A stretch of DNA of 64,000 bases from Chondrosia reniformis (Eukaryota > Porifera > Demospongiae > Chondrillida > Chondrillidae). The DNA lies in assembly GCA_947172415.1 (NCBI GenBank), contig OX359195.1:5989501-6053500 (forward strand). The letters are read 5' to 3'. Under the pieces are notes generated by a model, which did not search any database, was not told the DNA's origin, and saw only the letters and a program-made list of their open reading frames with translations. A program made the position numbers and the translations under genes. Of the stretch, positions 4,721 through 63,703 are shown piece by piece. The first letter of the stretch is position 1, and each line of letters begins with the position of its first letter.

Positions 4721-4779
4721 TACATGTACATATACATCTCTTCTAGTAAACGTTTTATTATGCATTTTTGGGAACTAAT

Positions 4780-27439: not shown

Positions 27440-28751
27440 ATGGCGGATGTATTTGAAAGAATAATTAGAAGCAACTATACGAGCCTTTCAGAGGGGCTCA
27501 GTGTACCAGATCTTGTTGATCACTTGTTCGAGAAGGAAATGGTGAGTGGAGAATTGAAGGAGAAGATAGAAAAGAGGTATAAATCAGACAGTCGACGAGA
27601 AGCCAATAAATTATACATCGACCATCTCCTCTCGAAAGGTACACTGCCCACTTTAAAAAAGTTCGCTCAGTTACTTGTCGACACCTCTGATAAATTGTGT
27701 AACGAAGTACACAAGGAATTGGGAACAACTTTATTGAAAGAAGTTGAAGAGCAGAGTGGAGGAGAGGCTGGGCGCCCGGAACAACAGGAAGCAAGTAAGG
27801 ACAATAGATGAAGCATTGTAATGGATAAGTTTCCTATGTATCACTCCATGCACCGGAAATATCATTGTACACCATCAGATATGTACTTAAGTGTGTACCT
27901 GTATCATATACTGGTGTGGATCAAGAGATACACATTCTCTACTATCTATGATTTGATCAATTCTACATTTTATGATATAAAAATATAGCTGATGAGAAAT
28001 TTCAGGCCCACTTTAATAGTTACAGTTACACAAGTTATTGAAAGCCACAAAATATACTATAACTCAGCTATGTTATTGAATTATCAGAGCATTCGTTAAA
28101 TCCTGCTTCCACACCTAAGTTACAACATTGTATGACCTGACCTGCCTCGCTTGATTAAATGAAGTCTCCTCCAACTAAGTTTGGATAACTTATGCTTATG
28201 AATACTCTGCCCAGAACTGTCTTAGTTATTGCCAAAGTGTCAACTTATATGATAAAATGTTCTAATAAAGGGGGATACCCTTTTCTAGGCTAGCTATTTA
28301 TTTAATCTGCAAGTGAATATTTTATATATGTACAGTAATTCTACTTTGATAATTCTATATATACAGTATATACAGTGCAAGTTACAATATATATATATAC
28401 GTAGTACTCAAAAAACAAAAAATCAGAGAATTTCTTAAAGATGTTGGCACACACTTGATGCAAAACGGTGATATGAAAGTTCTCTATGCTGATCTCCACA
28501 TGAAGAATGTCCTTTCTGATGAACAACTACAAATATTATCTCAATGTTCTTCAGTTAAGGAGGTCAATAAAAAGATCTACGAGTTCTTCTTCAATGATCC
28601 TTCAGCCCGTAAGCTTCAGACGCTTTCTGAAGTAATCAAGACCTACCCTACTCATGAAAACAATCAAGAACTAGCTACAAGGATTGACAAGTTTGTAAGT
28701 CAATATATTAGTAGTATAAATATTCCTCTCATAACATATTTATCTATATAG
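27440..28751 (+). CDS. Array unit A: protein with two death-fold (CARD-like) domains
   Basis: Exon 1 is 27440-27794, starting at MADVFERII; exon 2 begins at 28405 and joins in phase 1. Exon 1 is a six-helix CARD-like domain: LSVPDLVDHLFEKEMVSGEL, KEKIEKRYKSDSRREANKLY, then IDHLLSKGTLPTLKKFAQLL. It is clearly homologous to the first exon of units B, C, D and F. Exon 2 gives a second, unrelated-looking death-fold (VLYADLHMKNVLSDEQLQIL, KIYEFFF, LQTLSEVIKTYP). A good donor (gtaagt) at 28695 suggests further exons, but none is convincing; reading on gives a stop at 28751. Without Kelch or GTPase module this would be an adaptor-type protein. Upstream in-frame codons 27335-27439 are probably untranslated. 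Possible innate-immune or cell-death role is inferred from the fold. Confidence 0.65.
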
Positions 28752-29765
28752 CTGTATAAATGTTACTTATTACACAGTGCAGACTCTACAGTAAATCTTT
28801 TTCTGATAAATTACCCCTCATATTTGAAGTATCTTTAGTGTATATGTTTATATTAAGTGGTCTAGATCTTAGTGTTGTCACCACCTTTGAAACAGAGAAT
28901 CAGGTTTGTATGAATACGTATGTACTATGATTTGTAGAATGATACAGTTTTCCTGTAAAATGAGGTTACCACCAATATAGGGTGGTGGTGTCTATATGGG
29001 AAATGGGAGAACTTTCACTATCACACCTGAAGAAGCCTGTGATAGACGAGATGTTGTTTATATCTCGAATATTGATTGACAATTTATTGACTTGTTCAAG
29101 CTCAACTATATTCAGAATATAGACCCTTATGTCTGGTAGATAGTACACATAGAATTTCATTGCTGGTAAGGAAAGTTTGTTATATAATATGTATTCTCTT
29201 CTGTTTTATCACAGATAGTCAGTATTGCATAAAACATTTCAGTCTTGAGCAAAAGAAATGAATCAAGCATGAAGCATTTCTCTGTTAGGCCCAAATATGT
29301 TTTTGTATGATAGTTAGCTTTTATGTTAATTGGACTACAACTGTATTTAAATTAGTATAAGTGTGTAAAGTATGGTACAGCATGTATTCATACGAATACA
29401 ATAATTCATTTATTATATTAAAGTCTATTTTATATGGAGTGCTCAGACAGTGAATCACACCATACAAAAGTTAATTATAGTTTTATACAAAAGCTCTTTT
29501 TCATATGTATCAACATCATCATCATCATCTGTTCGATGCCGATGAAAATCTATAATATGTAGGTATACTATATATATCTATAATATGTAGGTATACTATA
29601 CTGCTAAACACTGCATGATTGACATGCATATGAGTAACGATATGCATATGTATAGCTACTGAAACATGGGAGGACTTCGGCGAGTGATTCATTACGGGAA
29701 GCAGAGCTGTTAACTACATCCACTTAACAGAGGGTGTGTCCTTCAGGCTTCCACGCCCTAAAAAT
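28752..29765. other. 5' flank of array unit B
   Basis: No gene seen. Sequence around 28860-29170 recurs diverged at 45.3-45.6 kb upstream of unit D, and 29170-29520 ('cataaaacatttcagtcttg') recurs at 35.87-36.18, 45.65-45.83 and 62.47-62.65 kb. It is therefore the ancestral upstream region of the array units. A 30-bp stretch just before the start ('gtgtccttcaggcttccac') is conserved in B, C, D and F, probably 5' leader. Confidence 0.55.
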
Positions 29766-32700
29766 ATGGCGGAAGGAGGTGGATATAACAGGAACGTTAA
29801 AGAAGTCGAGATTATCATTAAAAGACATTATACGAGACTTTTGGAACAACTAAATGTAACAAGTCTGGTCGACTACTTGTACGAGAAGGGAATGGTGAGC
29901 GGACAATTGAAGGAGAAGATAGAAATAAGAACGAAATCAGACGGTCGACGAGAAGGCAATAAACTATACATTGACCATCTCCTCTCGAACGGCACACTGT
30001 CCACTTTACAAAAGTTCGCTCAATTACTTGTCGACACCTCTGATAAACTCTGTAACGAAGTACACAGGGAATGGGGAACTACTTTATTGAAGGAAGTTGA
30101 AGAGAAGAGTGGAGGAGTGGCTGAGCGCCTGGAACAACTACGAATAAGTAGGACGCCTGTAGAGTTTATGTCTTATAAAAGTAAGACTATTTTAAAAATG
30201 TATTTATTTTTGTATTTAGCACCTGCTCCTATGAAAAACCTTCAAATTAAGCTAACCAACGAATACATAAGGATTAAGGACAAGTTTCGTGATGCTTGTA
30301 AAGAAGGTCCACCTTCTCTAGAAGATCTAAAGACGTGTTGCTGTGACCAAATAGAAGCTGCCTTTGACGATCGGCCAAATTACACCAAAGCAGAAAATGA
30401 TGTCGAGCTATGTAAAGATCTGGAGAAGCTGCTTCGTATATTATTCTTTCGTTTGAATAAATGGATCAGTTTTGAGCTTCTGGAGCGAGTTGTGGATTAC
30501 TTTAAACCGGCACTTGAATCAGTAGCCGAGGAAATAGAAGACTACAAGGTATGATAATTTGGCTGTCACTGATTTATGAACCATAACATATATATGAGTA
30601 TGATAATTTTTTGTAATGTATACTGTCAAAGTATAATCTATCAAGTTTCATAAATGCCTCCAATAATATTATAGGTTATTGTTGAATGTACATGCAGATC
30701 AAATTGAAGCCTTTTCTGGAAGAAAGGTTGACTAAAATATACGAGCTACAACAGATCCACGAGGAGGAGTGTGAAAATGAAGAAGGATTCCTAAAACTAG
30801 CTGTACACTATGGACTGGATGCAGGTGGTTTGCGAGTGAAAGATTTGTTAGAAGAGCGAGACTTTCTTGCTGACAGATTGGAGATTCCTAGATACTTATT
30901 GATGCCACTTACATGGAGGAGGGGAAACTCCATCACAATTGTGTACTGGACATTGGAGGAACTCGAGGAATCAGTCACTGAACAAATCAGGGTTAAGAAA
31001 TCAGAGCTGATAGCTCACAAAATTGAATGGATCCAATTAGGGAGTCTAGATCGTATTGTGATTGATCTTCAAGCAAAGTCTGGAAAAGATAAGTCTACCG
31101 TAAGTTCAACCAATCTATATACATAATCATCTAATCTGTACTTCATTGGAATGGAAAGTTTCTCTGAAAACCTTAAGCAGTGGCTAAATGTACACTAAGA
31201 GACTAATTTATCCATTTACATTTTTATCATTCTACATTCTGTTGATAAATGAACTATATTATCATGTATTCATACAGTATAGACAGAGATATTCTTTACA
31301 TTCGAAGTTCAAACTTTATGAAACTTGCTTGAGGTATATCAAACCTCCAGTTAAGTTGCATGAAGATAGATTGAAGTTCAATTGAAGTTCAATTGAAGTT
31401 CAATAAAGTCAATGCCTACCCTCAAATTGACAGCATTAAACAGCACCTTTTTCTTTTTTCTTTCTTTGATTTTCTCATCTTGTCCTCATTATCACTTGAA
31501 ATACTTCCATGCATGTATTATGTGTATCAAAAGGGATCCTCTCTAAGTAGGGATGGCCATCTTTCTGTATATTATCAATTATCACCTCACAAATCAGCAA
31601 TAGCTTCATCTCTATATGTAAGAAAAAGAGATATTGATTTTTGAATTGTGCCTATTGTTCTTTAGCCACTTTGCAAATGTAGTAGAGCATTAAAACATGT
31701 TTATGGAGTTATAAATGACTGCAAATGTAACCAAAAATCAATTTGTTATTGATGATAAGTGATATTGAATAGGGTAGCCATGTTTTTGGCCATCCCTATA
31801 CTTGGTACTATTGTACTCTCAGGTATAATTATAGTAGGTATTCATTTTTACCACCATTTTTATTTACTGCATTTCTCAGGTTTTCAGAAGTGACCTACTT
31901 TTACAGGGTCACACTGTAAAGTCAACCATGCTGCCTGACATGCCTATACCAACTGCTAGAGCTACAGCCTGTACTGCAGGGAGTGATATATTTGTTTGTG
32001 GTGGAGAGTGCAATGACTCACAAAATGAAAAAATAGTGCAACAATTCAACTTGGAAGATGGCAAATGGACGACACTTCCTCCAGCTCCACATTACAATTG
32101 TCATGCAGCAGTCATAAATGGCCTCCTAACATTGATAGGAGGTCGAGATTCAGAGACCGGGAGAGTTACCAGACAACTATCAACTTTTATAGAACACAAA
32201 TGGAAGTCTGTCTACCCATCAATGCCAACAGAGAGAATAAAACCCTCCGTACTTTACCATGACAACTTCCTCATTGTAGCTGGAGGATGGTTAGAGAGTT
32301 CAGTTCTAACCGACAGTATTGATGTAATGAACACATCAACAAAGGAATGGATCCAGCCAAGACACCTGACACTACCACAACCATTGTCAGGCCACCAAAT
32401 GACACTCTGCAAAGATAGGCTGTATGTTCTCAGTTGCCTTAATAGTAAACTATGGAGTATTCCAATCATTGACATCACTCAAACTGTAAATAATGAAGAA
32501 ATTTCAACAGCAATAAAATGGAAAGAAGGGAGACCACCGCCACATTTCTTATATTTAGATCCTTCCATCTTGCAAACCAGTGTATTACCAGTGGTAATGG
32601 ATTTTTTTTTAAATGATATTCTTGTGTATGATGACACTCAGGACGAGTGGATCAAAGTTGGAAAGTGCAGTGTAAACCGAATTTATGCTACCTCATTATC

Positions 32701-32791
32701 AATCAGTCCTGAGTCATTCATTGTGCTCGGTGGAATAAATCATATCGATTGGAAACAATTATCTTCTGTTGAATTACTAAAGATTAACTAA
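29766..32791 (+). CDS. Array unit B: CARD - helical region - Kelch protein
   Basis: Exons 29766-30147, 30220-30548, 30698-31099 and 31907-32791 give 665 residues; phases 1, 0, 0 fit. Residues 1-127 are the CARD-like domain ([37 protein letters not shown]). Residues 128-371 are a mostly helical region on two exons, ending [15 protein letters not shown] ... [15 protein letters not shown], which I cannot assign. Residues 372-665 are Kelch repeats: IFVCGG ... KWTTLPPAP, LTLIGG ... KWKSVYPSMP, LIVAGG ... EWIQPRHLTLP, DEWIKVGK, FIVLGG, about five or six blades. CARDs mediate homotypic assembly and Kelch propellers bind protein targets, so a sensor or adaptor for target recognition is plausible. Intron 1 (72 bp) is free of stops and divisible by three, so retention would be tolerated. 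Confidence 0.8.
31545..31835. repeat. Old MITE-like insertion in the Kelch intron
   Basis: Bounded by 'tagggatggcca' and 'ggccatccctatacttggt'. It shares blocks ('aaacatgttt', 'gactgcaaatgtaacc', 'gtagccatgtttttggcca') with younger X elements near 46.2, 56.0 and 63.1 kb. Orthologous copies occur in units C (about 42270-42580) and E (about 58985-59270), so the insertion predates duplication of the Kelch units. Confidence 0.65.
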
Positions 32792-32849
32792 TTTGTGTAC
32801 ATGCACCTCAATTTGTAACTGTGTTTGAAATTATCATTCAAATCATTTT

Positions 32850-35397
32850 TGGGGCGCCACAGGGGCCCCTATATTGTTTTCAGAAATTATGTTAACGTAT
32901 GGCTTCCTGTTCGTAGTCTTGTATATATATATATATATGTATAGTACACTACACAGTACAAGTTACTAGCAAATATATAAAATATTAAATTACAATCAAG
33001 TACTACATGCACAGTACAAGTTACAAATTTAAGAGATCCAAGTGACTATGTAATATTAAAATTACAATCAAGTAGTAGCTACACAGTGCAAGTTACAAAT
33101 TTAAAGAGATCCAAGTGACCCCTAGGATAATCAGTATTTTAAACAGTACAAGACTTTAGTCACACTAGTACTGTTGCAGGCTTTGAAATCCTCAACTACT
33201 GCATAGAGAGTAGTAGTTGATACAGATCATCCAATTGCAAGGTAGAACACATGGCCTACCAATTACCTTTTCACACCTTAGTATAGACTGAAGATGATGC
33301 ATCTGCATGCCATATATCAACAAAGGCTTCAGTATTAAAGGGGTCTCAGCTAATAACCACAGCAGATTTGATTTGCCTTGTGAGGGAGCTAAGAACACCG
33401 ACGGTTGGTTGCATGCATTGGCATAATCAACAGGGTTAGAGACCATTTTGTAACTTGTACACAAGGGACATCATATACGTATATAAAGGCCTTGGCCTTT
33501 TATGTCCCTTGTGTACAAGTTACAAAATGGTCTCTAACCCTGTTGATTATGCCAATGCATGCAACCAACCGTCGGTGTTCTTAGCTCCCTCACAAGGCAA
33601 ATCAAATCTGCTGTGGTTATTAGCTGAGACCCCTTTAATACTGAAGCCTTTGTTGATATATGGCATGCAGATGCATCATCTTCAGTCTATACTAAGGTGT
33701 GAAAAGGTAATTGGTAGGCCATGTGTTCTACCTTGCAATTGGATGATCTGTATCAACTACTACTCTCTATGCAGTAGTTGAGGATTTCAAAGCCTGCAAC
33801 AGTACTAGTGTGACTAAAGTCTTGTACTGTTTAAAATACAGATTATCCTAGGGGTCACTTGGATCTCTTTAAATTTGTAACTTGCACTGTGTAGCTAGTA
33901 CTTGATTGTAATTTTAATATTACATAGTCACTTGGATCTCTTAAATTTGTAACTTGTACTGTGTAGTACTTGATTGTAATTTAATATTTTATATATTTGC
34001 TAGTAACTTGCACTGTGTAGTGTACTTGAGTGTAATTAGCTAACAAAGTATTTCACTATACTTATAGACATTCGCTATAAGCAATTTCGTTACTGTATGT
34101 AGTACACATGGAAAACGTACTAACATGGATAAGAATAAAGCCTAGTTGAAAGTCAGCAATATGAATTTACTAATTCTGGACGTTTCGACCCAGAGGTCTT
34201 CATGCATCAGCAATATATGAGGAGTGGGAATACAATTCAGTATAAATAGGAAATTAGTAAATTCATGTTGCTGACACTCAACAAAGCTTTATTCTCGTAA
34301 TGATCGCAACAAACACTCCTAATTCCTACACATGGACAAGTAAAAATATTAACAGATAACGTAAGAAGAGAAGACAGAGCTTAAATTACCAAAGTAATAC
34401 GGTCGACCAAACGAATCCAGTCTTTCGCATCAATATAGGAACAACTCTGCCTCAAACTTGACGGGAACGTATACAAAAACGCTTTATCTAACCTTCGCTA
34501 CAACTCGCCTGTTCGGTAGCTCCTTCTCGTAGGAGAGCGTCGACTTGTCATAGCCGTTCTCGAAGGATGATCTTCTTTAGCAACGAGTCGGTGACGTTTT
34601 CGCAACGTCACATGATTCTCAAAATGTGTGTACGGAGCGACATACGAAAGTGTTGGTGACGCATTAGAAAAACATCACAATACATCACCAGCTTGCGCAA
34701 TCGTAACTTTGAATTCTTCATTATATCTTGATTATTTTGCTCATTTAATTAAGCAAAACTTCGTCAGACGTTTCTTATACACATGTACCATGATATATGT
34801 TGATTTCACAGTTATCTGACAAATTGAAATTTTTTATCAATATAACACATTGTTTGCATATAAATTTCCCATAGGTTTTCTATAGTCCTATGGCCTTTTA
34901 TATGCAGATTTTGTCCTCTGTTTTCTAACAAACGGAGGCCTAAATTAAAAATCCCTTAATTTAAAATGAGTTTTATACCCTAAACTTTATGATGATATGC
35001 CCATTTTGTTTCTAGGTCCTTTCTTGGAGCCATATGAATTATTTAATTAATTATATTATATTATTTATATTAGATTACCTTAGTATATTGTAACTTGTAC
35101 TGTATATATCTGTCAAAAAATGGCGGACGTTCGGCTAGCTTTCGTTTTCTAGCTTAAAATTAGCTTTCTCTTCCTTAGCGTAGAACATTGAACGAACGAA
35201 ATGGACTTAAAAACCACCCTTACTAATACTATGTAACGTAAAGCTTGCGCAAAAACGTTTTCTACGAGATATGGCCTTGAAACATTGACGGCCAGCAAGA
35301 GTCGATCGGAAATCGGTTAACCGTATATCTATGAGAACCAGCCAAGTAGTTCGAGTTTACTTAGGGGCGCCTGGCGCCCCACGAGTTTTTTAAACTC
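32850..35397. mobile_element. Composite insertion of 2.5 kb downstream of unit B
   Basis: Sequence following units C and E ('ctacaattcatgaatacaaa') continues directly after their stop codons, but in unit B it is displaced to 35402. The intervening 2.5 kb begins near 'tttggggcgcc' and ends near 'ggcgccccacgag', a possible short terminal inverted repeat. It includes a large palindrome, a smaller inverted repeat near 34150-34290, and about 1 kb shared almost identically with 61.15-62.18 kb. No transposase is seen, so a non-autonomous DNA element or nested insertions are likely. Confidence 0.55.
32943..34027. repeat. Perfect-type palindrome with arms of about 530 bp
   Basis: Left arm 32943-33470 and right arm 33500-34027 are inverted copies around a 29-bp centre containing 'atatacgtatat' and 'aaggccttggcctttt'. 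Each arm encodes the same 90-residue open frame (MCTSYKMVSNP ...), on opposite strands. Each arm also has internal direct repeats ('gtgcaagttacaaattt', 'caagtgac', 'caatcaagta'). A single arm is present at 60606-61150. Confidence 0.85.
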
Positions 35398-36200: not shown

Positions 36201-39200
36201 TTTCATAACTGATTAAAACTTAGACTCTATATATACTTGAAAGATTCCATACCTGTATCCTCTACCTCCCCCCCAGTCACTACTCAGATAAAATGTAGTG
36301 TTTGGAACGTAAGTGGTTTAGGCAATAAATTAGGTAACAATTTAATAGCTAATATTATGTTTCACCTAGATTTAGATATTCTTTGTGTTTGTGAAACTTT
36401 CTTAAGGAACAATGATTGTCCTCCTTCTAACCATAATTATATTTGGTTTGGCTCTAATAGGAAACTGTTATCAAAGAAAGCCACCAGAGGCTCTGGTGGT
36501 GTTGGGGTCTTTATTAATCAATCACTATTGAGGTCATTTAATGTTAATGTTCTAGATAATTCAGTAGATGATATTCTCTGGCTCAGCTTCACTAGTATCA
36601 CACAAATGTTTGTTGACTTTGTCCTGTGTGTTGGCTACCTTCCGCCAGTAGGCTCTAGTAGAGGTGACACATCAGTAGAATTTTTTGATACTCTTATATC
36701 CCAGACCTACAAATTTCAAGATTTTGGTAACTTCTTTATCTGTGGTGATTTTAATGCCCGATGTGGCACTCTTAAGGACCCCCTAGAAGATGTATTCCCT
36801 AGACAAATTCTCGATAGAACAGTGAACTCACATGGTGTAAAGCTCATGGAATTCCTCAATAGTTGTGACATGTGCTTACTAAATGGAAGAACCCACTCCA
36901 ATAATCAAGGTAACTACAATGACTTTACTTCTATCTCCCCAAAAGGCTCTGCTGTAGTAGACTACTGTCTGTTGCCCTCCGAGTTTGTTGATAGATATAA
37001 AAACCTTTCTATTATCACTATGACAGAGTTATTGGCCCTCCTGTCTCACCTAGATACACTACAGAAACTGTCAGACCACTCTATTCTCACATGGGATCTT
37101 GTTGTTAACAATGAAAATTCTGCAATTCAACTCTGTCCCAACTCACAATCTCACACCCCTTTAATATGTAAACCTTCAATCCCTTCACCCCCCTCTCCTA
37201 TCGCAGATACTCCCACTGATTCTCAATCTCTAAATCAAATCTTGACACTAATAGAAAGCCTCCAGGACCCTTCTATAGTTACATACCCCTCCCTAGAAGC
37301 CAATTACAGTACATTTCTCAGTACTATTATCCCCCCTGCCCCCCACACTACTTCAGTTTTACATAAATCTTCCTCCAGTTACATTAGATCCTTTAAAAAA
37401 CCCTGGTGGAGTAGCTCCCTTACTGCAGCTAGGAAAACCCTTAAAAGTACACAGAGGAGATGGTTAAAAAATAAATCAGATCAGAACCTGTTTATGAAGT
37501 ACAAGGTTGCCCAAAGACATTTTGATAAGTTAGTCAGAAATTCTAAACGATCTCTAATTAGGAAGAAACGAGAGAATCTATTAAGAATGCTGTCCAAAAA
37601 CCAAAGGAAGTTTTGGAAAACCTTTGACAGAATCTCAATAGCTAGTGAAAGGGCACAAAAAAGAGGCATACCTAGACAAGTTAGACTGCATAATGGTAAT
37701 CTAAGTAATGATCCTAGGGTTGTTAAAGATTCTTGGTTGTCCTTCTTCAAAAGTATTTATGCAGGAACAACTGACTGTAACCCAGCAGGTAACCCTTTGG
37801 TCTCCCAAATAACACCTGACTATGATGTAAACCACATTAACACTGATCATGACCCCAGTAATGAGTTACCTAACCCTCTAATGCCCCCAGAGGAATTAGA
37901 TGTGACTATTACCCCTGAGGAGATTGATTTAGCTATTAGCCTATTAGGAGAAAACAAATCCCCCGGATTAGATGGAATTACTACCTCAATTCCTAAAAAT
38001 GAAATGGTCAAGAGATACCTACTCGTGCTTTATAACTATTGCTTTGACTCTGGACTAATTCCTTCCTCTTGGGATAACACCTTAATATGCCCTATCCCTA
38101 AAAATAACAATGACCCCTACTCCCCTGAAAATTACAGAGGCATTGCCATACAATCAATCATCCTAAAGGTTTTCTGCCACATACTTAACAAAAGACTGAG
38201 TTCGTACTTAGAAATTAACGATTTACTTGTTGAGGAACAGTATGGATTTAGAAAACAAAGAAGCTGTGCCGACCATCTTTTCTCTTTAAGTAGTGTAACT
38301 GAAGCTAGAATGAAAATGAAATTAGACACCTTTGTCTGCTTTATTGACTTTAGGAAAGCCTTCGACTCTATCCCTAGAAATCATCTCTGGGATAAACTAC
38401 AGAGGATTGGTGTAAGAGGCAAATTACTTAAGGTTATTCAAAGTATGTACTCTAATGTCCACTACACAATAAAGCTTAACGATACCTTTACAGAATACTT
38501 TAAGGTAGATCAGGGTGTAAAACAAGGATGCCCCCTCTCCCCTACACTTTTCAATATTTACATTAATGACTTAGCCATAGACCTCAAAAAGTGCCAGCTT
38601 GGCCTCAATATATATAATGATAAATTAAGTTGCCTTCTCTATGCAGATGATATTGCAACCTGTGCCGAATCAGTAAATGATTTACAATGTCTACTAGATA
38701 TACTTCATGTTTGGTGTGCTAAATGGCAACTCCAAATTAACACCAATAAGACTAAGGTCATTCATTTCCGCCCGACTCAACACAAACTATCACAGTTCAA
38801 ATTTCATATAGGCTCCTCTCACATAGAATACACCAAAGATTATAATTACTTAGGTTTATCACTAAATGAACATTTAACCTGGAGCAATTCCATTGCATTA
38901 ATATCCAAGAAAGCCTCCAAAGCTGCCAACCTCTTAACAGCTAAATCTAGAGCGTATGGTAACTTCCATTATAATGTCTTTAGTCATCTATACCGAACAC
39001 TAGTCCTAAGTATAATTAGTTATAGCTCACATGTCTGGGGTGCAAAAGAATATCAATCCCTTGAATTGGTACAAAACAATGTCATGAGATCATTTATAGG
39101 CCTTGGTAAGACTGCTCCTCTTGTCGGACTCATGGGTGAACTAAACTGGAAGCCATTACACTGGCATACTAAATTTACCACCATTAAATTCTGGCATCAC

Positions 39201-45879: not shown

Positions 45880-46442
45880 TCACTTTTTGTAAATGTTTTT
45901 CATTTACTTGTATTCCCCCTTTTTATATTACTTGTTTTAAATTGGTTTGAAAGTTTTCCTGGCGAAAATCTCGAAATAACGTCTTAGACAAGAGAAATAT
46001 GCCGAAAACCATATCTTAAGTAAAAATGGCGTCCGAGAAGACTACGCTTTTCACAATTAACATGCTTTTTGTAGAGCGCATTCAGGTTTAGGGCCGTCTA
46101 GTCCCTAGTTCGGAAATATTTATGACGATTTATAACTTGTACGTGCCCGCATAAGTTCGCATATTAGCGCTAGTCTATTCAATAAAAGAAGAAAAAATGA
46201 AAAAATGAATTTTGGAAATGGGCCTATTCTTGGTTAGCCACTTTTTGAGCGCTGTAGAGCGTGTAGAGCGTCGAAACATGTTTTGGTATTTAGAAAAGCA
46301 TGCATTAATGGCTGCAAATAACCGAATATAACCGAAAATCGCTTCGTTGGTGATTTATGAGGTGTTGATTGCTAATACATTGGACAGGGCGGTCATTTTT
46401 TTCGGCCATTCTTACTTAGAGAGTACTACCGTACTCTCTGAT
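45880..46442 (+). repeat. MITE-like element X upstream of unit D
   Basis: Begins near 'cactttttgtaaatg', passes 'cctggcgaaaatctcgaaat', and ends with the small palindrome 'gagagtactaccgtactctc' at about 46420-46439. Closely related copies are at 62730-63295 and, diverged, at 55428-56142 and in the Kelch introns. Its end is only about 45 bp from the unit D start codon. Confidence 0.7.
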
Positions 46443-46486
46443 ATTGGGTGTGTCCTTTAGGCTCCCACGCTTAAATAGACCGCAAT

Positions 46487-52400: not shown

Positions 52401-54646
52401 TCACAATAGTGTATTGGACATTGGAGGAACTCAAGGAATCAGTCACTAAACAAATCAGGGTTAAGAAATCAGAGCTGATAGCTCACAAAATTGAATGGAT
52501 CCAATTAGGGAGTCTAGATCGTATTGTGATTGATCATCACACAATGTTTGAAAACATGGTATGTGTTCCTTATTTACGTATATAACTACATTCCTATATA
52601 GTCAACTACAATAGGAATAGCAATCGTATATATATAGCTATAGCTTGCATACATCCAATCTTCATATAAAAATTAACAATTTAATGATTATAGACAGCAT
52701 TTCCATTAATAATAAAAAATATACTAAATAAAAAGGCTTCCTAATTTAAAAATTGCATGCAAAATTCTGAACAAACCTTTTAAATGACTGTTTATTATCA
52801 GCCAAGTGACTGTAGTCTTATCTTGGCTAGGAAACCAATGTCCTATTAAAGTGGCAACCAGTGACTCACCACTGATGAATCCTAAAAGGGGGGAAGTAGC
52901 TGTTTGTTGTTCTTTGATGATGTTTTCCATCTGGGATGACTGGGAAGCACTAGTTGCTAAACGAATAGAACTTCACTATAACCAATTAAGGTAGACTTAG
53001 TCACTTGCATGGTGGATTCAGCATAAAATTTACTTACATTGTTCATTGTAGTGATTATATATACGTATGACATATCCACTCAAGAGAATGTGTGATTTTC
53101 TTGTTTATAGATACATGCAACAGTTGGTGATATAATGATTTCTCCAGAAGATTCATCAATTCTGACAATTGGTCCTTTTGGTCATGGTAAAGCCACTTTT
53201 TTGCGTTTCTTTTGTCAGAATGAAGATGGTTTTAAAGCACCATACCAAATCCGAGGTGTTAAGAGGTTTAAAGAGAAGGTATACCACGTTTTCAAGACCC
53301 CAGGCTTTGAAGCACCAGCTGAATTAGATGAGGCTAAAATTGCTGAATTAGGCTTGAAATTCTTGGAGGAAGTTAAAAATGTCTTTGTGCAAGCAGGAGA
53401 AGCCATAACTGCACTATTTTTAGTGTACAATCCTCATGCTGGTGAGGTGTCCCATTCCATGGATCAACTGCTGCAAGCAGTCAAAATTTCTTGGAATCAC
53501 ACTATTTTGGTGGTTACACATGCATCTACGTTCTTGCCTGCAAAATCGGAACGAGATCAATATCAACGTTGGAATGCCTACTTGGAGAGTGATGGCTGCC
53601 CTAAATCCCTGAAAGAAATGGTAAAAAGAGTAAATAACCGCTGCCTACTGGTCGAATGTGTACCAACAAAGAATGAAAAATACTGCAATACTATGGCTGA
53701 GAGGTGTGTGGAAATGTTAGACCGTATTCAGAAGGATCATGGTGTTTACAGAAATAGTTTGTTTCTAAGTGCTCGTGAAGAGGCTTCAAAGAGGTTGCTC
53801 AAGTCCTATAAATCCTTTGCTAATAATGAGCAATTCAGAAAAGTGATAGATCAACAAAAGGAAGGTTTTAAGGACTTGAAGATGCAGGTAATGCAATTTC
53901 AAAAAAAATATCGAGCACTGATTCCTTTGGTCAAAGAAATAGCTAAGGAGTTTCAACATTTTCTTAAAATTGTGCAGTATGCTAAGAAAGGTGGTAAAAT
54001 TGCTGCAGTTACTGGCGTTGCAGGAGGCATTGGATTGGGGGTTTTGGGTGGCATTTTGGCACCATTTACTGCGGGAGCATCTTTAGGTCTCCTAATAGCA
54101 GGTGGAGTAGCAGCTGGGACTGGAATCGGAACCGGTGCAGTCGTATGGGGGATAACCAACCTTATAGAGAAGTTTGAGGAAGAAGATGTGATTAGAAAGG
54201 CCGAAGGTCCAGTCCGAGAGTATAGAGAAGATCTAATTGCCTTCTACGAGACTTACGATGTGGTGACAGCCAAACTAAAAGAGAGCATTATTAGCTTATT
54301 AGATGGTTCACAGATTGATGAAGATGCTTTTGTAGCTGCTATTTGCTTGGCTCTGGGTGTCAAGGAGAACGATGTCACTACTGCTTCAGATGTGATTCAG
54401 AAGATAATATTTTTTCATGTGTTTCGTGGGAATAATGAAGAATTAAAGCAATCATTAGGCAAAATAGCAGCCGGTTTTGGAGAATTTAATCAAAGTACCA
54501 GTGCAGCTGAAGTAGCTGCTCGTACCTTCCTCTTGGCTCACAAAGAAGGTATGCCAATTGACCACTACTTACTTGAAGCTATCAAATTAATGGAGATTGA
54601 ACTGGAAGCATTGGAAAATTTGAGTAATTTGAGTAATTTGAATTAA
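46487..54646 (+). CDS. Array unit D: CARD - helical region - degenerate AIG1/GIMAP-like GTPase - APOL-like segment
   Basis: Exons 46487-46850, 51678-52027, 52166-52558 and 53111-54646 join in phase (1, 0, 0) into 880 residues. Residues 1-121 are the CARD-like domain, 122-369 the same helical region as in the Kelch units. From about 378 a P-loop-like segment ([18 protein letters not shown]) and AIG1-type spacing follow, with KTPGF where DTPGF is expected and VVTHAS as a possible G4. The usual S/T after GK is A and the G3 aspartate is K, so GTP hydrolysis is doubtful. Residues about 663-720 are a glycine-rich hydrophobic hairpin with [18 protein letters not shown], resembling the apolipoprotein-L membrane segment. 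The last module is on one 512-codon exon. Intron 1 (4.8 kb) is full of transposon debris. A membrane-acting immune effector is plausible but inferred. Confidence 0.75.
46851..48880. other. First part of unit D intron 1
   Basis: 46851-47150 is also present after the unit F CARD exon. 47231-47655 carries overlapping minus-strand frames and 47660-47863 a Pro/His-rich plus-strand frame ([19 protein letters not shown]); neither matches a family I know. Higher GC than surroundings suggests inserted material. No exon of unit D recognised here. Confidence 0.4.
48890..49240 (+). pseudogene. Decayed Ulp1-type (C48) cysteine protease from a DNA transposon
   Basis: Fragments in one direction read [56 protein letters not shown], then [17 protein letters not shown]. 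These are the histidine (HW) and cysteine (DCGVFA) surroundings of Ulp1-like proteases carried by some DNA transposons. Several stops and a frame change interrupt it, so it is dead. Confidence 0.7.
49230..49960 (-). mobile_element. LINE reverse-transcriptase C-terminal fragment
   Basis: Minus-strand frames read [20 protein letters not shown] and [12 protein letters not shown], the segment after the RT domain of many non-LTR elements (PILLYGxExW ... LExxQ). A further frame at 49238-49477 probably continues it after a frameshift. Higher GC than host sequence. Decayed copy in unit D intron 1. Confidence 0.65.
50133..50849 (-). mobile_element. pogo/Tigger-type element with partial transposase
   Basis: Terminal inverted repeats 'cagtcaaacctcgataacg' and 'cgttatcgaggtttgactg' are flanked by TA (50131-50132 and 50850-50851). 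On the minus strand 50620-50303 encodes about 105 residues: [20 protein letters not shown] and [19 protein letters not shown] form the psq helix-turn-helix, followed by [20 protein letters not shown], the start of the CENP-B second HTH. The DDE catalytic domain is absent, so it is a deletion derivative of 717 bp. Confidence 0.9.
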
Positions 54647-54703
54647 TCATGCAGTAGTAGCATAACTAAACTTTGTATATGCACTGGCATAAATTTAAAC
54701 CTT

Positions 54704-54709
54704 AATAAA
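54704..54709 (+). terminator. Polyadenylation signal of unit D
   Basis: AATAAA 58 bp after the stop codon on the same strand. Confidence 0.6.
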
Positions 54710-54724
54710 CATTAAAATATTTTA

Positions 54725-54908
54725 TAAATAGCTGAACTATATACGTACATGCATAAACTTATTTTTTGTAATTAAGTTTTTGTAGTATCAAGTTAATTCA
54801 TTACTGCTAGTGACAACTTTATAAATGGCTAACTATATACATGCATAAACTTATTTTTGTAATTAAGTTTTTGTAGTATCAAGTTAATTCATTACTGCTA
54901 GTGACAAC
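54725..54908 (+). repeat. Direct tandem duplication of about 90 bp
   Basis: Two near-identical copies of a block running from 'aactatatac' through 'gtaattaagtttttgtagta' to 'tgctagtgacaac', directly downstream of unit D. Confidence 0.85.
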
Positions 54909-54969
54909 AGTACACCAGAAATTAAAATGTGCTGTTACTCTGAAAATGGAAAGATATGAAGCTATATAT

Positions 54970-56142: not shown

Positions 56143-56890
56143 TCAGAGAGTACGGTAGTACTCTCTATGTAGGGATGGTACTGGTTGTTTCGTTTTCCCC
56201 ATACATTGGTATAGGAGCGAAATTCCGAAATAGGCTGAAAATCGCCGAAACGAGACTATGTAGAGTTAAATGTAGAACAGCCATGCTATAAATTGGCCTT
56301 GAAGGCAAGCGACCGTGTATCGTTGGCAAATGAACGAACTTTGAAATCTCCCTTTTTCGTTTTCTTCTTCATCTTCTTCATCTTCTTCGCCCGCTGTAAC
56401 TAAAAAACGAAATAAGCCTTCGGACTACTTCATAAGCGAAAATACTCTAAATTTTCCGAGCTGTATTCGTTTGTAGAAGCGAGAGCGATAACGCTATTAT
56501 TGAGTATGACAGTTTTCATGGCCCCAGAGTCAAGACCTCAATAAATTCGCCATTTTAATGACGTCATATTCAGTCGAAAATTGCAAAACCAAAGTGGTTT
56601 AAAATACAATCAAATTCCTAGCTTATGCTCCATAAAAAGTACAGAAACTAGAGAACAATAAAAATTTTCTACAAAAATAGTGAAGATGTAGGGATGGCAC
56701 AAAAAGCAGAGAAACAAGAAAGGGATGTTACACAGTGAAGCATTAGCTATGCATGAATCCTACAAGCAAGGGTGTTGTATGATTCATGCATATATAGCTA
56801 ATGCTTCACTGTGTAACATCCCTTTCTTGTTTATGTGCTTTTTGTGCCATCCCTACATCTTCACTATTTTTGTAGAAAATTTTTATTTTT
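56143..56890. mobile_element. MITE-like element Y, second copy (inverted)
   Basis: Opposite-orientation counterpart of 6073-6828, beginning 'gagagtacggtagtactctc' and ending in the 230-bp palindrome 56657-56887 with 'tagggatggca' in each arm. Confidence 0.75.
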
Positions 56891-57137
56891 CTCTAGTTTA
56901 TATAGGTCTCCATTTGGTAGAAAATGGAGGACAAAGTTTGCATATAAAATGCCATAGGACTATAGAAAAGCTATAGTAAATTTAAATTTATATTGAAACC
57001 AATTGCAAGTGTTATGTTATATTGATAAAAATTATCATGCAGATCACTGTGAAACCGACATACATGTGTATGACAAACGTCTGGCGAAATATTGCTTAAT
57101 TAAAGTTGCAAAATAATCAAGATATAATGATCCCCAG

Positions 57138-57676
57138 GCATTTTACGTAGCTACACTTTTTTCACACTTAATCAATATAATATATGTAATTTGGCAGAGT
57201 GGATCTATGGTATAATATGAGTGATATGAAGATATAGTGTGTCCTTTTAGTTTGACATTTTGAACATCTATAGAATTGTAGTTTGTATGACTTTTGTCAA
57301 CTCTGAGAAGCTTCTTCATTGACCTCAAATGGAGAGATTAACCACTTAAACACTAAGTTCAACACAGAAGATTCTTTTTCTGTATATCCTCTTGCCATTC
57401 CTTAGCTGATGGTGAGGTTAAGCGAGGAAAGTGAGTGCTGTCAACGCCTCCAAGCCTACATTGAGAGCTTGCTTATCAATGTTATGAATAAACATCCTGA
57501 ATTACTGGAAGTCAAGACTTCTAAATAGTAATTTAGTAATTTTATTATATACAATACAGTTTTAGTGTAACTTTCTCCCTTTTTTAATATTGTAAGTATG
57601 TTTATATATGTATGTAAATTTCTGTGCAGTAACTTAATACGTACCTGGTTCCAAGTAAATGATACACACACATATA
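57138..57676 (+). pseudogene. Duplicated last exon and 3' region of the Rab11-FIP gene
   Basis: Matches 26452-26980 with few differences. 57406-57528 keeps the whole 41-codon final exon open (VRLSEESECCQRLQAYIESL ... then stop) and the acceptor 'cttag'. No other FIP exon is nearby, so it cannot make a FIP. It ends at 'acacacatata' and runs straight into array unit E. Confidence 0.85.
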
Positions 57677-57677
57677 A

Positions 57678-60225
57678 GGACAAGTTTCACGATACTTGTA
57701 AAGAAGGTCCACCTTCTCTGGAAGACCTAAAGACGTGTTGCTGTGACCAAATAGAAGCTGCCTTTAACGATCGGCCAAAGTACACTAAAGCAGAAAATGA
57801 TGTTGAGCTATGTAAAGATCTGGAGAAGCTGCTTCGTATATTATTCTTTCGTTTGAATAAATGGATCAGTTTTGAGTTTCTGGAGCGAGTTGTGGATTAC
57901 TTTAAACCAGCACTTAAGCCAATGGCCAAAGAAATAGAAGACTACAAGGTAAGATAATTTGGCTGTCACTGATTTATGAATCATAACATTAAAATTATTA
58001 TTATGAGTATGATCAATTTTTTGTAATGTATACTGCCAAAGTATAATCTATCAAGTTCCAAAATTCAGACATGTAATTAAATATTTTCAAAAATGCCTCG
58101 AATAATAATATTATAGTTTATTGTTGAATGTACAGATCAAATTGAAGCCTTTTCTTAAAGAAAGGTTGACTAAAATATACGAGCTACAACAGATCCACAA
58201 GGAGGAGTGTGAAACTGAAGAAGGATTCCTAAAACTAGCTGTACACTATGGACTGGATGCAGGTGGTTTGCGAGTGAAAGATTTGTTAGAAGAGCGAGAC
58301 TTTCTTGCTGACATATTGGAGATTCCTAGATACTTATTGATTCCACAGACATGGATGAGGGGAAACTCCATCACAATAGTGTACTGGACATTGGAGGAAC
58401 TCGAGGAAGCAGTCACTAAACAAATCAGGATTAAGAAATCAGAACTGATAGCTCACAAAATTGAATGGATCCAATTAGGGAGTCTAGATCGTATTGTGAT
58501 TGATCTTCAAGCAAAGTCTGGAAAAGATATGTCAACCGTAAGTTCAACCAATCTATATACATAATCATCTAATCTGTACTTCATTGGAATGGAAATTTTT
58601 CTAGGTTTCTCTGAAAACCTTAAGCAGTGGCTAAATGTACACTGAGAGACTAATTTATGCATTCACATTATTATCATTCTACATTCTGTTGGTAACTGAG
58701 CTATATTATCATGTATTCATACAGTATAGACAGAGATATTCTTTACATTCGAAGTTCAAACTTTATGAAACTTGCTTGAGGTATATCAAACCTCCAGTGA
58801 AGTTGCATGAAGATAGATTGAAGTTCAATTGAAATTCAATTAAAGTGTCAATGCCTACCTTCAAATTGACAGCATTAAACAGCACCTTTTTCCTTTGATT
58901 TTCTCATCTCATCCTCGTTATCACTTGAAATACTTGTAAATATATGTGCATGTATTATGTGTATCAGAAGGGATCCTCTCTAAGTAGGGATGGCCAAAAG
59001 ATGATATATTATCAATTATCACCTCACAAATCAGCAATAGCTTCATCTCTATATTTAAGAAAAAGAGATAGTGAATTGTGCCTATTGTTCTTTAGCTACT
59101 TTGCAAATGTAGTAGAGCATTAAAACATGTTTATGGAGTTATAAATGACTGCAAATGTAACCAAAAATCAATTTGTTGTTGATTTATGAGATGATAAGTG
59201 ATAATACATATTGAATAGTGTAGCCATGTTTTTGGCCATCCCTATACTTGGTACTATTGTACTCTCTGGTATAATTATAATAGGCAATCATTTTTACCAC
59301 CATTTTTATTTACTGCATTTCTCAGGTTTTCAGAAGTGACCTACTCTTACAGGGTCACACTGTAAAGTCAACCATGCTGCCTGACATGCCTATACCAACC
59401 GCTGGAGCTACAGCCTGTATTGCAGGGAGTGATATATTTGTTTGTGGTGGAGTGTGCAATGACTCACAAAATGAAAGAATAGTGCAACAATTCAACTTGG
59501 AAGATGGCAAGTGGACTACACTTCCTCCAGCTCCACATTACAATTGTCATGCAGCAGTCATAAATGGCCTCCTAACATTGATAGGAGGTCTAGATTCCGA
59601 GACCAGGAAAGTTACCGGACAACTATCAACTTTTATAGAACACAAATGGAAGTCTGTCTACCCACCAATGCCAACAGAGAGATTCCAACCCTCCATACTT
59701 TACCATGACAACTTCCTCATTGTAGCTGGAGGACTGATTTATTTGGATACCGACAGTATTGATGTAATGAACACATCAACAAAGGAATGGATCCAGCCAA
59801 GACACCTGACACTACCACAACCATTGTCAGGCCACCAAATGACACTCTGCAAAGATAGGCTGTATGTTTTCAGTTGCCTTAATAGTAAACTATTGAGTAT
59901 TCCAATCATTAACATCACTCAAACTGTAAATGAAGAAATTTCGACAGCAATAAAATGGAAAGAAGGGAGACCACTATTCCTGCCACATTTCTTTTCTTCC
60001 ATCCTGCAAACCAGTGTATTACCAATGGTAATAGATCAAATCTCAAATGATATTCTTGTGTACGATGCCACTCAGGACAAGTGGATCAAAGTTGGAAAGT
60101 GCAGCGTACACCAAAGATTGGCTACCTCATTATCAATCGGTCCCAAGTCATTCATTGTGCTCGGTGGAATAAGTAATATCGATCGGAAACAATTATCTTC
60201 TGTTGAATTACTAAAGATTAACTAA
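57678..60225 (+). pseudogene. Array unit E: 5'-truncated helical region - Kelch unit
   Basis: Begins inside the first helical exon ([18 protein letters not shown]) with no CARD exon and no splice acceptor before it. Downstream exons are intact and in phase: ..57948, 58136-58537 (134 codons, no internal stop), 59353-60225 (291 codons, Kelch). Kelch sequence is nearer to unit C (DSIDVM after LIYLDT) than to B. Unless spliced to the upstream FIP-like sequence or driven by a new promoter it is a pseudogene. Confidence 0.7.
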
Positions 60226-62475
60226 TTAGTGTACATGCACCTCAATTTGTAACAGTGTTTGAAATTATCAATTTTTTCTACAATTTATGAATACAAAACT
60301 TAACTCAATTTTCCATATTCTAAAAAGACTAAATACATCAAATGAAATACAACATGTTTGTAATTCAGAAAGCCTATAATTATAACACTTGTGGTTCACA
60401 CAATACTTTAAAGGGAATGGTTCAAATACAAACTGCACAAACAGAAAGAAGTTTGTAAATAACTTTAGGGTTAACTGCAACGTTAGGATTATAATACGCA
60501 TATATGTGTAATGGTTACGTAAAAGTATTGCATTATGTATATAGAATCATACAGCTCTATAGTAATAGATTTTATTTAAAATACATGTACAGTGGACCCT
60601 TGCCTACACAAGGGACATCATATACGTATATAAAGGCCTTGGCCTTTTATGTCCCTTGTGTACAAGTTACAAAATGGTCTCTAACCCTGTTGATTATGCC
60701 AATGCATGCAACCAACCGTCGGTGTTCTTAGCTCCCTCACAAGGCAAATCAAATCTGCTGTGGTTATTAGCTGAGACCCCTTTAATACTGAAGCCTTTGT
60801 TGATATATGGCATGCAGATGCATCATCTTCAGTCTATACTAAGGTGTGAAAAGGTAATTGGTAGGCCATGTGTTCTACCTTGCAATTGGATGATCTGTAT
60901 CAACTACTACTCTCTATGCAGTAGTTGAGGATTTCAAAGCCTGCAACAGTACTAGTGTGACTAAAGTCTTGTACTGTTTAAAATACTGATTATCCTAGGG
61001 GTCACTTGGATCTCTTTAAATTTGTAACTTGCACTGTGTAGCTAGTACTTGATTGTAATTTTAATATTACATAGTCACTTGGATCTCTTAAATTTGTAAC
61101 TTGTACTGTGTAGTACTTGATTGTAATTTAATATTTTATATATTTGCTAGTAACTTGCACTGTGTAGTGTACTTGAGTGTAATTAGCTAACAAAGTATTT
61201 CACTATACTTATAGACATTCGCTATAAGCAATTTCGTTACTGTATGTAGTACACATGGAAAACGTACTAACATGGATAAGAATAAAGCCTAGTTGAAAGT
61301 CAGCAATATGAATTTACTAATTCTGGACGTTTCGACCCAGAGGTCTTCATGCATCAGCAATATATGAGGAGTGGGAATACAATTCAGTATAAATAGGAAA
61401 TTAGTAAATTCATGTTGCTGACACTCAACAAAGCTTTGTTCTCGTAATGATCGCAACAAACACTCCTAATTCCTACACATGGACAAGTAAAAATATTAAC
61501 AGATAACGTAAGAAGAGAAGGCAGAGCTTAAATTACCAAAGTAATACGGTCGACCAAACGAATCCAGTCTTTCGCATCAATATAGGAACAACTCTGCCTC
61601 AAACTTGACGGGAACGTATACAAAAACGCTTTATCTAACCTTCGCTACAACTCGCCTGTTCGGTAGCTCCTTCTCGTAGGAGAGCGTCGACTTGTCATAG
61701 CCGTTCCCGAAGGATGATCTTCTTTAGCAACGAGGGGGTGACGTTTTCGCAACGTCACATGATTCTCAAAATGTGTGTACGGAGCGACATACGTAGGTGT
61801 TGGTGACGCATTAGAAAAACATCACAATACATCACCAGCTTGCGCAATCGTAACTTTGAATTCTTCATTATATCTTGATTATTTTGCTCATTTAATTAAG
61901 CAAAACTTCGTCAGACGTTTCTTATACACATGTACCATGATATATGTTGATTTCACAGTTATCTGACAAATTGAAATTTTTTATCAATATAACACATTGT
62001 TTGCATATAAATTTCCCATAGGTTTTCTATAGTCCTATGGCCTTTTATATGCAGACTTTGTCCTCTGTTTTCTAACAAACGGAGGCCTAAATTAAAAATC
62101 CCTTAATTTAAAATGAGTTTTATACCCTAAACTTTATGATGATATGCCCATTTTGTTTCTAAGTCCTTTCTTGGAGCCATATGAATTAATTAATTATATT
62201 ATATTATTTATATTATATTATATTAGATTACCTTAGTATAATATACTATAATATACCTTAGTATAATATACTAAGGTAATCTAATATAATATCTAATATA
62301 ATATATACAGTGCAAGTTACAATATACTAAGGTAATCTAATATAAATATATAAATAATTAATATAAATAAATAATATAATTAATTAATTCATATGGCTCC
62401 AAGAAAGAACCTAAAACTTGGTAACTTGCACACAAGGGACATTGTTCATGAAATAAATTAAAGGCCCCACCATAT
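60226..62475. other. 3' flank of unit E with large recent duplication
   Basis: 60226-60589 matches the 3' flank of unit C. At 60590-60604 the first 15 bp of the Tigger terminus found at 43880 are present and then broken off. 60606-62180 matches 33490-35050 almost base for base. 62200-62400 is an AT-rich inverted repeat ('actaaggtaatctaatat' in both directions). No gene recognised; the 90-residue frame at 60656-60928 is the palindrome-arm frame. Confidence 0.65.
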
Positions 62476-63339
62476 AAGATTGTTATATAATATATGTATA
62501 TATGTATTTTCTTCTGTTCTTATATTTGCATAAAACCTTTCAGTCTTGAGCAAGAGGAATGAATTTGAGCAAAAGAAATGAATCGCGTGAGATTATTCTC
62601 TGAGAGACCCAATCTTTTTTTGGTATGATATATAGGTGGCTAATCATACAGAAGTTGCATGTATACTGAAATTTAAGTAACTTAACCATACACTTCTGTG
62701 TTTGGGCGCACCATTCCTACTTCTATAACATCACTTTTTGTAAATGTTTTTCATTTACTTGTATTCCCCCTTTTTTATATTACTTGTTTTAAATTGATTT
62801 GAAAGTTTTCCTGGCGAAAACCTCGAAATAACGTCTTAGACAAGAGAAATATGCCGAAAACCATATCTTAATTAAAAATGGCGTCCGAGAAGACCACGCT
62901 TTTCACAATTAACATGCTCTTTGTAGAGCGCATTCAGGTTTAGGGTCGTCTAGTCCCTAGTTCGGAAATATTTATGACGATTTATAACTTGTACGTGCCC
63001 ACATAAGTTCGCATATCAGCGCTAGTCTATTCAATAAAAGAAGAAAAAATGAAAAAATGAATTTTTGGAAATGGGCCTATTCTTGGTTAGCCACTTTTTG
63101 AGCGCTGTAGAGCGTGTAGAGCGTCGAAACATGTTTTGGTATTTAGAAAAGCGTGCATTAATGGCTGCAAATAACCGAATATAACCGAAAATCGCTTCGT
63201 TGGTGATTTATGAGGTGTTGCTTGCTTGGATAAGGCGGTCATTTTTTCGGCCATTCTTACTTAGAGAGTATAGGCCTACTACCGTACTCTCTGATATTGG
63301 GTGTGTCCTTTAGGCTCCCACGCTTAAATAGACCGCAAT
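62475..63339 (+). repeat. Upstream region of unit F with element X
   Basis: Near-copy of 45645-46486, including X element sequence at about 62730-63295 and the conserved leader 'gtgtgtcctttaggctccca'. Shows that units D and F share flank as well as gene. Confidence 0.75.
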
Positions 63340-63703
63340 ATGGCGGAGGGAGGATATGACAGAATCGCTACCGAAGTCGAGAGTATAATTAGAAAACATT
63401 ATACTAGTCTTTTGAAAAAGCTTAATGTACAACAACTGGTGGACTACTTGTACGAGAGGAAAATGGTGAGCGGATCATTGATGGAGAAGATAGAAAAGGC
63501 AGACAGTCGACAAGAAGCCAATAAAGTGTACATCGACCATCTCGTCTCGAATGGCACACTGTCTACTATACAAAGGTTCGCTGAATTACTTGTCGACACC
63601 TCTGATAAACTCTGTAACGAATTACACAGGGAATGGGGAACTACTTTACTGAAGGAAGTTAAAAAGAAGAACGGAGGAGGGGCTGAGCGCCTAGAACAAC
63701 TAC
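63340..63703 (+). CDS. Array unit F: CARD-like first exon, gene continues beyond window
   Basis: Same length (364 bp) and phase-1 donor (gtaagt) as the unit D CARD exon; starts [40 protein letters not shown] and YIDHLVSNGTLSTIQRF mark the CARD-like helices. It matches the D exon closely and its intron start repeats that of D to the end of the window, so the full gene is probably a D-type or Kelch-type unit; the C-terminal module cannot be seen. Confidence 0.7.

Follow-up and report, generated by a model that had tools for sequence, protein, structure and literature searches.

Proteins in which Death-like domains precede a TRADD-N domain and a variable C terminus have been described as lineage-specific expansions in the NCOA6 and DEDD2 clades (Kaur et al. 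2021, PMC8195603). According to that paper's account of the expansions, the largest belongs to the NCOA6 clade, with 357 proteins in the sponge Amphimedon, where the layout is mostly one to three Death-like domains, TRADD-N and a tail that varies between proteins and often evolves fast (ankyrin, SH3-LRR, kinase, MATH, caspase and others). Beta-propellers and AIG GTPases are given there as tails of TRADD-N proteins in other animals, and propellers adjoining TRADD-N are proposed as direct sensors of invaders (PMC8195603). Here we describe a tandem array of CARD-headed genes in 64,000 nucleotides of the sponge Chondrosia reniformis (GenBank contig OX359195.1, here C7, positions 5989501 to 6053500; this whole stretch is referred to as the window). 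We tentatively interpret the array as intracellular innate-immune or cell-death genes, an assignment for which the case is close to evenly balanced, built from a Death-fold head, a TRADD-N-like adaptor and a variable tail in two alternating forms, of which the Kelch form would sense and the GTPase/APOL form would execute.

Like the class of PMC8195603, the array combines an N-terminal death-fold, an adaptor of alpha-beta type whose turn carries Gly and Ser, exchangeable tails and expansion in a sponge. It differs in that the TRADD-N homology of its third exon is a candidate only, and that paper's sections on expansions do not describe Kelch units paired with GTPase/APOL-like units in a single array; the words Kelch and apolipoprotein are absent from its main text. 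In Biomphalaria glabrata, an expanded invertebrate family also places a CARD or death domain before AIG1 (PMC7053062); in the available text of that paper, no APOL-like segment (the word apolipoprotein is absent) or comparable linker is described, and the array GTPases, unlike those proteins, have altered G1 and G3 motifs. Amphimedon was reported to lack AIG1 genes (PMC7053062), which are present in the sponge Dysidea avara, where GIMAP-family genes respond to microbial consortia (PMC11229196). Sponge bona fide NLRs share a CARD or death-fold head, a repeat-type sensor and expansion in sponges (PMC12909245, PMC6208332), and CARD receptors with NACHT-LRR were described earlier (PMC12909245). 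Membership of the bona fide NLRs was rejected since the ten array proteins scanned gave no NACHT or LRR match. The Apolipoprotein L family, with an immune and membrane role in mammals according to literature abstracts, resembles the GTPase-type tail in its glycine-rich hydrophobic hairpin; the array copy scanned falls below the Pfam cut-off, unlike a relative elsewhere in the genome (L028). An earlier note on this DNA held that no family of this composition had been described. The class itself has been (PMC8195603); CARD-linker-Kelch, CARD-linker-GTPase-APOL, or both in one array were not found among the papers listed in searches of the open-licence PubMed Central literature. Thus, Death-like plus TRADD-N plus tail proteins, CARD-AIG1 fusions and sponge CARD-NACHT-LRR receptors were known beforehand, and the pairings seen in the array, as predicted here, appear new.

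Composition and extent of the array

The genome searched comprised 117,379,552 bases in 15 contigs. Two gene types recur in the array: a CARD exon, a conserved two-exon linker region and a Kelch exon; or a CARD exon, the same region and one long exon with GIMAP-like GTPase and APOL-like segments. After the window was stitched to the next 69.5 kb of C7 (coordinates above 64000 are positions in the stitched sequence), the array was found to reach C7:6116936, the last array Kelch exon, for a total of ∼100 kb. Among the matches listed for exon 2, exon 3 and Kelch, no other close copy lies beyond this point. From left to right the units are A, B, C, D, E (U4), U5, U6, U7, fragments, U9, U10, U11, U12, fragments, U14 and U15. 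Four units have all four exons open with AG and GT at each junction (B, 674 amino acids; D, 880; U9, 880; U11, 882). Exon 1 ends in phase 1 in seven open CARD exons and in A, exons 2 and 3 end in phase 0, and the donors read GTAGGA in the Kelch type and GTAAGT in the GTPase type. Paralogous array exons share 60 to 99% protein identity, and an entire GTPase-type unit, long intron included, is duplicated (46441 to 54823 in D versus 88227 to 96616, stitched, in U9; 95.5% identity over 8.4 kb), so the pattern is not due to chance. These data bear out the earlier note's modular, duplicating array with exchangeable tails. Confirmed were CARD exons in A, B, C, D and at 63340 to 63703, a conserved two-exon region in B, C, D and E, Kelch modules in B, C and E, and the phases 1, 0, 0, which hold with AG/GT sites in B, C, D and the downstream units.

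All exons placed in the window are on the plus strand. Unit D, of the GTPase type, consists of a CARD exon (46487 to 46850), exon 2 (51678 to 52027), the candidate TRADD-N-like exon 3 (52166 to 52558) and exon 4 (53111 to 54646), which encodes a GIMAP/AIG1-like domain with altered G1 (GHGKA) and G3 (KTPG), an APOL-like segment and a further tail. Its CARD lies 4.8 kb from exon 2, a distance of 1.8 kb in the broken unit U14; by eye, the long intron of D holds a frame on the minus strand resembling the DNA-binding part of a transposase (CENP-B/pogo-like, 50303 to 50656). The U5 CARD exon (63340 to 63703) is also of the GTPase type, with the remaining exons past the window and broken. Further GTPase-type units are U9 (CARD at 88273, four exons all open), U11 (CARD at 103223, all exons open) and U14 (CARD at 119389, frameshifted).

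In unit B, a CARD exon (29766 to 30147) is followed by the helical half of the linker region (30220 to 30548), its alpha-beta half, putatively TRADD-N-like with a G-N-S turn motif (30698 to 31099), and a Kelch propeller with stop codon (31880 to 32791, acceptor at 31880 or 31907). Unit C has a CARD exon (40535 to 40916), exon 2 (40986 to 41314), exon 3 (41445 to 41846) with an in-frame TGA that makes it a disabled copy as assembled, and a Kelch exon (42634 to 43509). Unit E comprises exon 2 (57649 to 57948) with a diverged 5′ end and no standard acceptor, exon 3 (58136 to 58537) and a Kelch exon (59326 to 60225), no CARD being assigned to it. The starts of the C and E Kelch exons were set by likeness to B. 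Beyond the window lie U6 (exon 2, exon 3 and a Kelch exon with two stops), U7 (CARD at 80857, all exons open, exon 3 acceptor CAT instead of CAG), U10 (exon 3 and Kelch), U12 and U15 (Kelch), with fragments at 86005 and from 117640.

The Pfam cut-offs were 23.9 bits for CARD (PF00619) and 28.2 bits for CARD_2. The CARD of D passes the former (30.3 bits), and that of B scores 20.2 bits with CARD_2, below the cut-off. Three of the six listed array CARD rows reach the PF00619 cut-off, two of them only with frame neighbors, and three remain below. Genome-wide, 36 of 72 listed CARD matches exceeded the cut-off; matches occurred in two of 14 control genomes, none over it. Exon 1 of unit A (27440 to 27794) begins MADVFERII, ends in phase 1 at GTAAGG and scores 18.2 bits with CARD, with 60 to 72% amino acid identity to the other seven CARDs. 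Its small exon 2 (28405 to 28694), previously taken for a second death-fold, could not be confirmed as such: no credible Pfam match was identified, and likeness to the local CARD model was weak (6.6 bits; E value, 0.0011 in a two-sequence search). As exon 2 ends in phase 0 at GTAAGT, gene A continues beyond it; the next known phase-0 acceptors after 28694 belong to B, and unit A may be an alternative start of that gene.

Kelch tails of B (71.7 bits) and C (56.2 bits), the two scanned, pass the cut-off of 20.1 bits (PF01344 and related), and the Kelch exon of E is 85% identical to that of B. The propeller appears six-bladed by eye. A second, larger Kelch array lies on C2, with dozens of listed rows. 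At L046 on that contig (C2:1304001-1314000), a Kelch frame (517 to 1389) is followed by an 812-amino-acid frame (2825 to 5260) with COR-A and Roc matches below cut-off and then a CARD exon (∼6437 to 6670); L041 (C2:3513501-3523500) has the same order of COR-A/Roc-like frame (70 to 82% identical to that of L046) and CARD, and the two loci could be candidate Kelch-ROCO-CARD genes. At L049 (C14:826001-836000), within a C14 Kelch array, a Kelch frame (2946 to 3878, minus) adjoins a tyrosine/serine kinase frame (4865 to 5731, minus; 157 bits).

For the long GTPase/APOL exon, cut-offs were 27 bits for AIG1 (PF04548) and 25.9 bits for ApoL (PF05461). U9 exceeds the AIG1 cut-off (32.4 bits); D (26.5, or 24.7 in another scan), U14 (26.2), U11 (25.3) and U5 (22.9) fall below. 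The tail of D, GTPase-like and APOL-like in the earlier note, resembles AIG1 and, weakly, ApoL; D itself is below both cut-offs, and L028, a relative in the same genome, passes both. A glycine-rich hydrophobic stretch lies at about residues 297 to 345 of exon 4 of D. A genome search with the ApoL profile returned no array row, and phmmer of the exon against PDB gave six rows at E values of 0.5 to 0.95, none significant, although a few were secretion or pore-forming proteins of bacteria. G1 GHGKA and G3 KTPG were found in all three intact array copies, where the four relatives read have GHGKS or GSGKS and DTPG. Nucleotide binding by AIG1/GIMAP GTPases needs the P-loop Ser/Thr and the G3 Asp; given the altered motifs, binding by the array GTPases is probably weakened or lost.

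Comparable joins were identified elsewhere in the genome. At L025 (C1:9605043-9609557), a single 638-amino-acid frame contains CARD_2 (30.2 bits), AIG1 (50.4 bits), in which G1 and G3 are both intact, and a hydrophobic tail that is a homologue of the D exon (25% identity spanning its residues 8 to 509); as read from sequence, it is a compact version of unit D. Single frames also join the two-exon region to an AIG1-like GTPase at L052 (C1; AIG1, 26.6 against 27 bits; MMR_HSR1, 27.0 against 21.9) and AIG1 to ApoL at L028 (C4; 49.6 and 46.9 bits). At L051 (C10), a CARD frame (45.7 against 23.9 bits) lies ∼170 bases before a two-exon-region frame, splice sites not being identified. These arrangements, together with the 8.4-kb D/U9 copy, support the predicted exon joins. 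Separately, at L024 (C1:1088327-1092859), a GTPase/APOL-like frame follows an exon (61 to 519) that is putatively death-fold by eye and has no Pfam match.

Other features of the window were recorded. Between B and C lies a retrotransposon judged by eye to be of the long interspersed nuclear element (LINE) type, with an open 1,236-amino-acid endonuclease/reverse-transcriptase frame (36213 to 39923). A 1.6-kb direct repeat (33458 to 35087 versus 60605 to 62240) is 99.0% identical, closer than the adjoining genes, which suggests a recent mobile or converted piece. Left of the array, a GNAT acetyltransferase-like frame (13259 to 14203, plus) and tubulin-tyrosine-ligase-like pieces (16749 to 17789, minus) were identified by eye.

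The linker region and TRADD-N

The two-exon linker was found in B, C, D, E and the downstream units. No credible match by sequence was identified in Pfam or PDB, weak ones being taken as chance. With a local profile, nothing better than an E value of 1.5 was obtained in 14 other loci, including other Kelch, CARD and AIG1 loci, and the linker is therefore not a general partner of Kelch. Outside the array the linker had 13 matches; in each of the four that were read, exons 2 and 3 are continuous in a single frame, and the array intron would fall mid-frame. The earlier note had described the whole region as helical, which holds for the exon 2 half; the exon 3 half is predicted to be alpha-beta, with an order of helices, two strands with a tight turn, helix and two strands (low confidence; predicted local distance difference test [pLDDT], 56.8; predicted template modelling score [pTM], 0.54).

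The turn in exon 3 carries a Gly and a Ser that are invariant in all seven sequences, at residues 76 to 78 between predicted strands 69 to 75 and 78 to 84; three array copies have one extra residue (N or D) between them. In the TRADD-N superfamily, the turn that joins strands 2 and 3 is described as carrying a strongly conserved Gly/Ser motif (PMC8195603), and on this basis exon 3 is considered, with a slight leaning in favor, to encode a TRADD-N-like domain. The exon 3 model was also compared with PDB by Foldseek in view of the RRM-like fold of that superfamily, and no TRADD was present in the best 50 of 693 PDB matches.

Divergence among units

For the GTPase type, the ratio of non-synonymous to synonymous substitution rates (dN/dS) was 1.31 for the CARD exon (p = 0.60), 0.88 for exon 2, 0.91 for exon 3 and 0.77 for the GTPase/APOL exon. 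Kelch-type values were 0.44, 0.46 and 0.52 for the first three exons (p = 0.09 to 0.17 versus 1) and 0.96 for Kelch. No signal of positive selection on whole exon sets was detected. The head tends to be more constrained in the Kelch type and not in the GTPase type: of the three pairs of intact GTPase-type genes, two have their highest exon divergence in the CARD, and in the remaining pair CARD and exon 2 are roughly equal. CARD differences were 34 (D-U9), 32 (D-U11) and 35 (U9-U11) of 364 nucleotides, and exon 2 differences were 37, 8 and 31 of 350, respectively; the D-U11 CARD changes comprised 28 non-synonymous and 4 synonymous. The constant signalling head proposed in the earlier note is thus not supported for the GTPase type.

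Exons were also compared with non-coding DNA at non-CpG sites (all p values are for single comparisons, uncorrected). Between D and U11, the CARD exon differed at 25 of 326 sites and the surrounding non-coding DNA at 18 of 743 (p = 0.00014), and exons 2 to 4 differed at 58 of 2,194 against 6 of 1,026 (p = 0.00003). Between D and U5, the values were 25 of 326 for the CARD and 21 of 601 for non-coding DNA (p = 0.007), so in each of the two pairs compared the GTPase-type CARD has diverged more than the non-coding DNA around it. Only these two pairs were relied on, because the excess in exons 2 to 4 of D versus U9 is not significant at non-CpG sites. The contrast of D and U9 exons (5.7%) with their long intron (1.3%) was dropped as evidence of exon acceleration, the intron being near-identical and the right half of U9 having another history. 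Units are mosaics: the U9 5′ flank equals that of U14 (0 of 150 differences), and its intron follows D.

Changes private to D, U9 or U11 in exons 2 to 4 of a four-copy alignment numbered 90 non-synonymous and 25 synonymous. Exons of D and U11 diverge several-fold faster than the intervening introns, and the synonymous sites of exons 3 and 4 are raised too. Selection alone would not raise synonymous change, and therefore exchange between units or exon-biased mutation must contribute. Exon-limited exchange would point to swapping of spliced sequence between units, a germline diversity generator acting on exons.

Proposed function and alternatives

CARDs assemble homotypically, one face of a Kelch propeller binds ligand, and APOL hairpins enter membranes. 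In the mechanism proposed, the Kelch form would act as sensor: capture of a ligand in the propeller pocket would free the linker region and allow the CARD to polymerize. The GTPase/APOL form would be the executor, recruited through like-with-like CARD contacts, and could insert its glycine-rich hydrophobic hairpin into a membrane; given the altered G1 and G3 residues, its GTPase domain would probably be a scaffold and not a nucleotide switch. The shared head would couple the two kinds of gene, and executor CARDs may diversify to stop cross-fire between sister lines or to evade pathogen inhibitors. The full scheme, an alternating sensor/executor array paired by a shared head, each form diversifying another end (propeller pocket or CARD) with exon-limited exchange as the diversity generator, is more speculative than the innate-immune or cell-death assignment and is judged unlikely. 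That the use is immune and not some other is inferred from the composition, the tandem turnover and published work; the earlier note's innate-immune reading of the composition is plausible at that same level of inference.

Several results weigh against the innate-immune and cell-death interpretation. dN/dS differed significantly from 1 in none of the eight exon sets (lowest p = 0.09), and values near 1 could equally come from relaxed constraint. At non-CpG sites, the exon excess was significant in three of six comparisons, not in two (exons 2 to 4 of D-U9, p = 0.18, and of U9-U11, p = 0.13), and absent in the Kelch-type pair C and U7, where no exon excess over non-coding DNA was seen (p = 0.54). 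Several units are broken (C, U5, U6 and U14, plus fragments). The D exon, the array copy scanned, scores 15.8 bits with ApoL, below cut-off, and the single-sequence structure model of the GTPase/APOL exon gave no usable fold (pLDDT, 36). For exon 3, none of 693 Foldseek matches in PDB had an E value of 0.001 or better, the top rows being mostly designed proteins; the Pfam models NCOA6_TRADD-N and TRADD-like_N do not match; and hhalign against human TRADD alone, a weak test with one sequence, gave a probability near 0. In favor of the interpretation count the four fully open units, the joins seen elsewhere in the genome, the Gly/Ser turn, the D-U11 CARD divergence and the response of GIMAP-family genes in D. 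avara. The propeller counts in its favor too: 59 of 288 gap-free columns vary among the seven open Kelch copies, and variable columns are enriched in the six-residue windows that open the blades, at the expected pocket edge (15 of 36 versus 44 of 252 elsewhere, Fisher p = 0.0016; 11 of 36 versus 28 of 252 without B, p = 0.0035), a lead and not a test because the windows were placed after the alignment had been inspected. In Keap1, positions like these line the ligand pocket.

The broken copies and the dN/dS of ∼1 in several exons are also what would be expected of a decaying array, in which selection acts only slightly on leftover CARD, linker and tail exons and the transcript of D excludes its CARD, from which it is separated by 4.8 kb and a transposase-like frame. 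We regard this as unlikely, while giving it real weight: seven of the eight array Kelch exons listed are open where, from the differences among those seven, ∼4.5 stops would be expected under neutrality (a biased comparison, the seven having been chosen as open), the whole of D was copied as a single 8.4-kb block, L025 has its CARD in frame with the GTPase, and the CARD-to-exon-2 gap is only 1.8 kb in U14, itself broken. A housekeeping role for the Kelch units, as ubiquitin-ligase or scaffold adaptors like the KLHL proteins and not as sensors, would accord with the common use of Kelch propellers in such adaptors and with at least 125 Kelch-exon matches genome-wide at an E value of 1e−10. It is judged very unlikely, as a Pfam scan of the unit B exons gave no BTB or BACK match, a CARD occupies the place of BTB, and local duplication is rapid. 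With no BTB ahead of Kelch in unit B, membership of the BTB-Kelch (KLHL) family was rejected.

Fast duplication, mosaic exchange (the U9 flank shared with U14), a variable propeller pocket and a variable CARD would suit a system of self/non-self recognition at tissue fusion, in which the ligand is not microbial and contact between different sponge genotypes triggers cell death, much as in fungal incompatibility. The sequence is that of one individual; we consider this use of the array distinctly unlikely.

If the innate-immune interpretation with paired sensor and executor genes is true, a sponge has receptor genes paired with membrane-executor genes in a single array, all built on the same head, an arrangement best known in plant and fungal immunity. 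AIG1-type GTPases are numerous in this sponge (40 of 48 listed matches over cut-off); some of these rows will be other GTPases, because the same search matches 13 of 14 control genomes, over cut-off in eight. The single frame at L028 suggests that fusions of GTPases with APOL-like membrane segments also occur outside vertebrates. The array would then also provide a concrete set of genes that can be cloned to test the TRADD-N immune class, which is so far largely computational.

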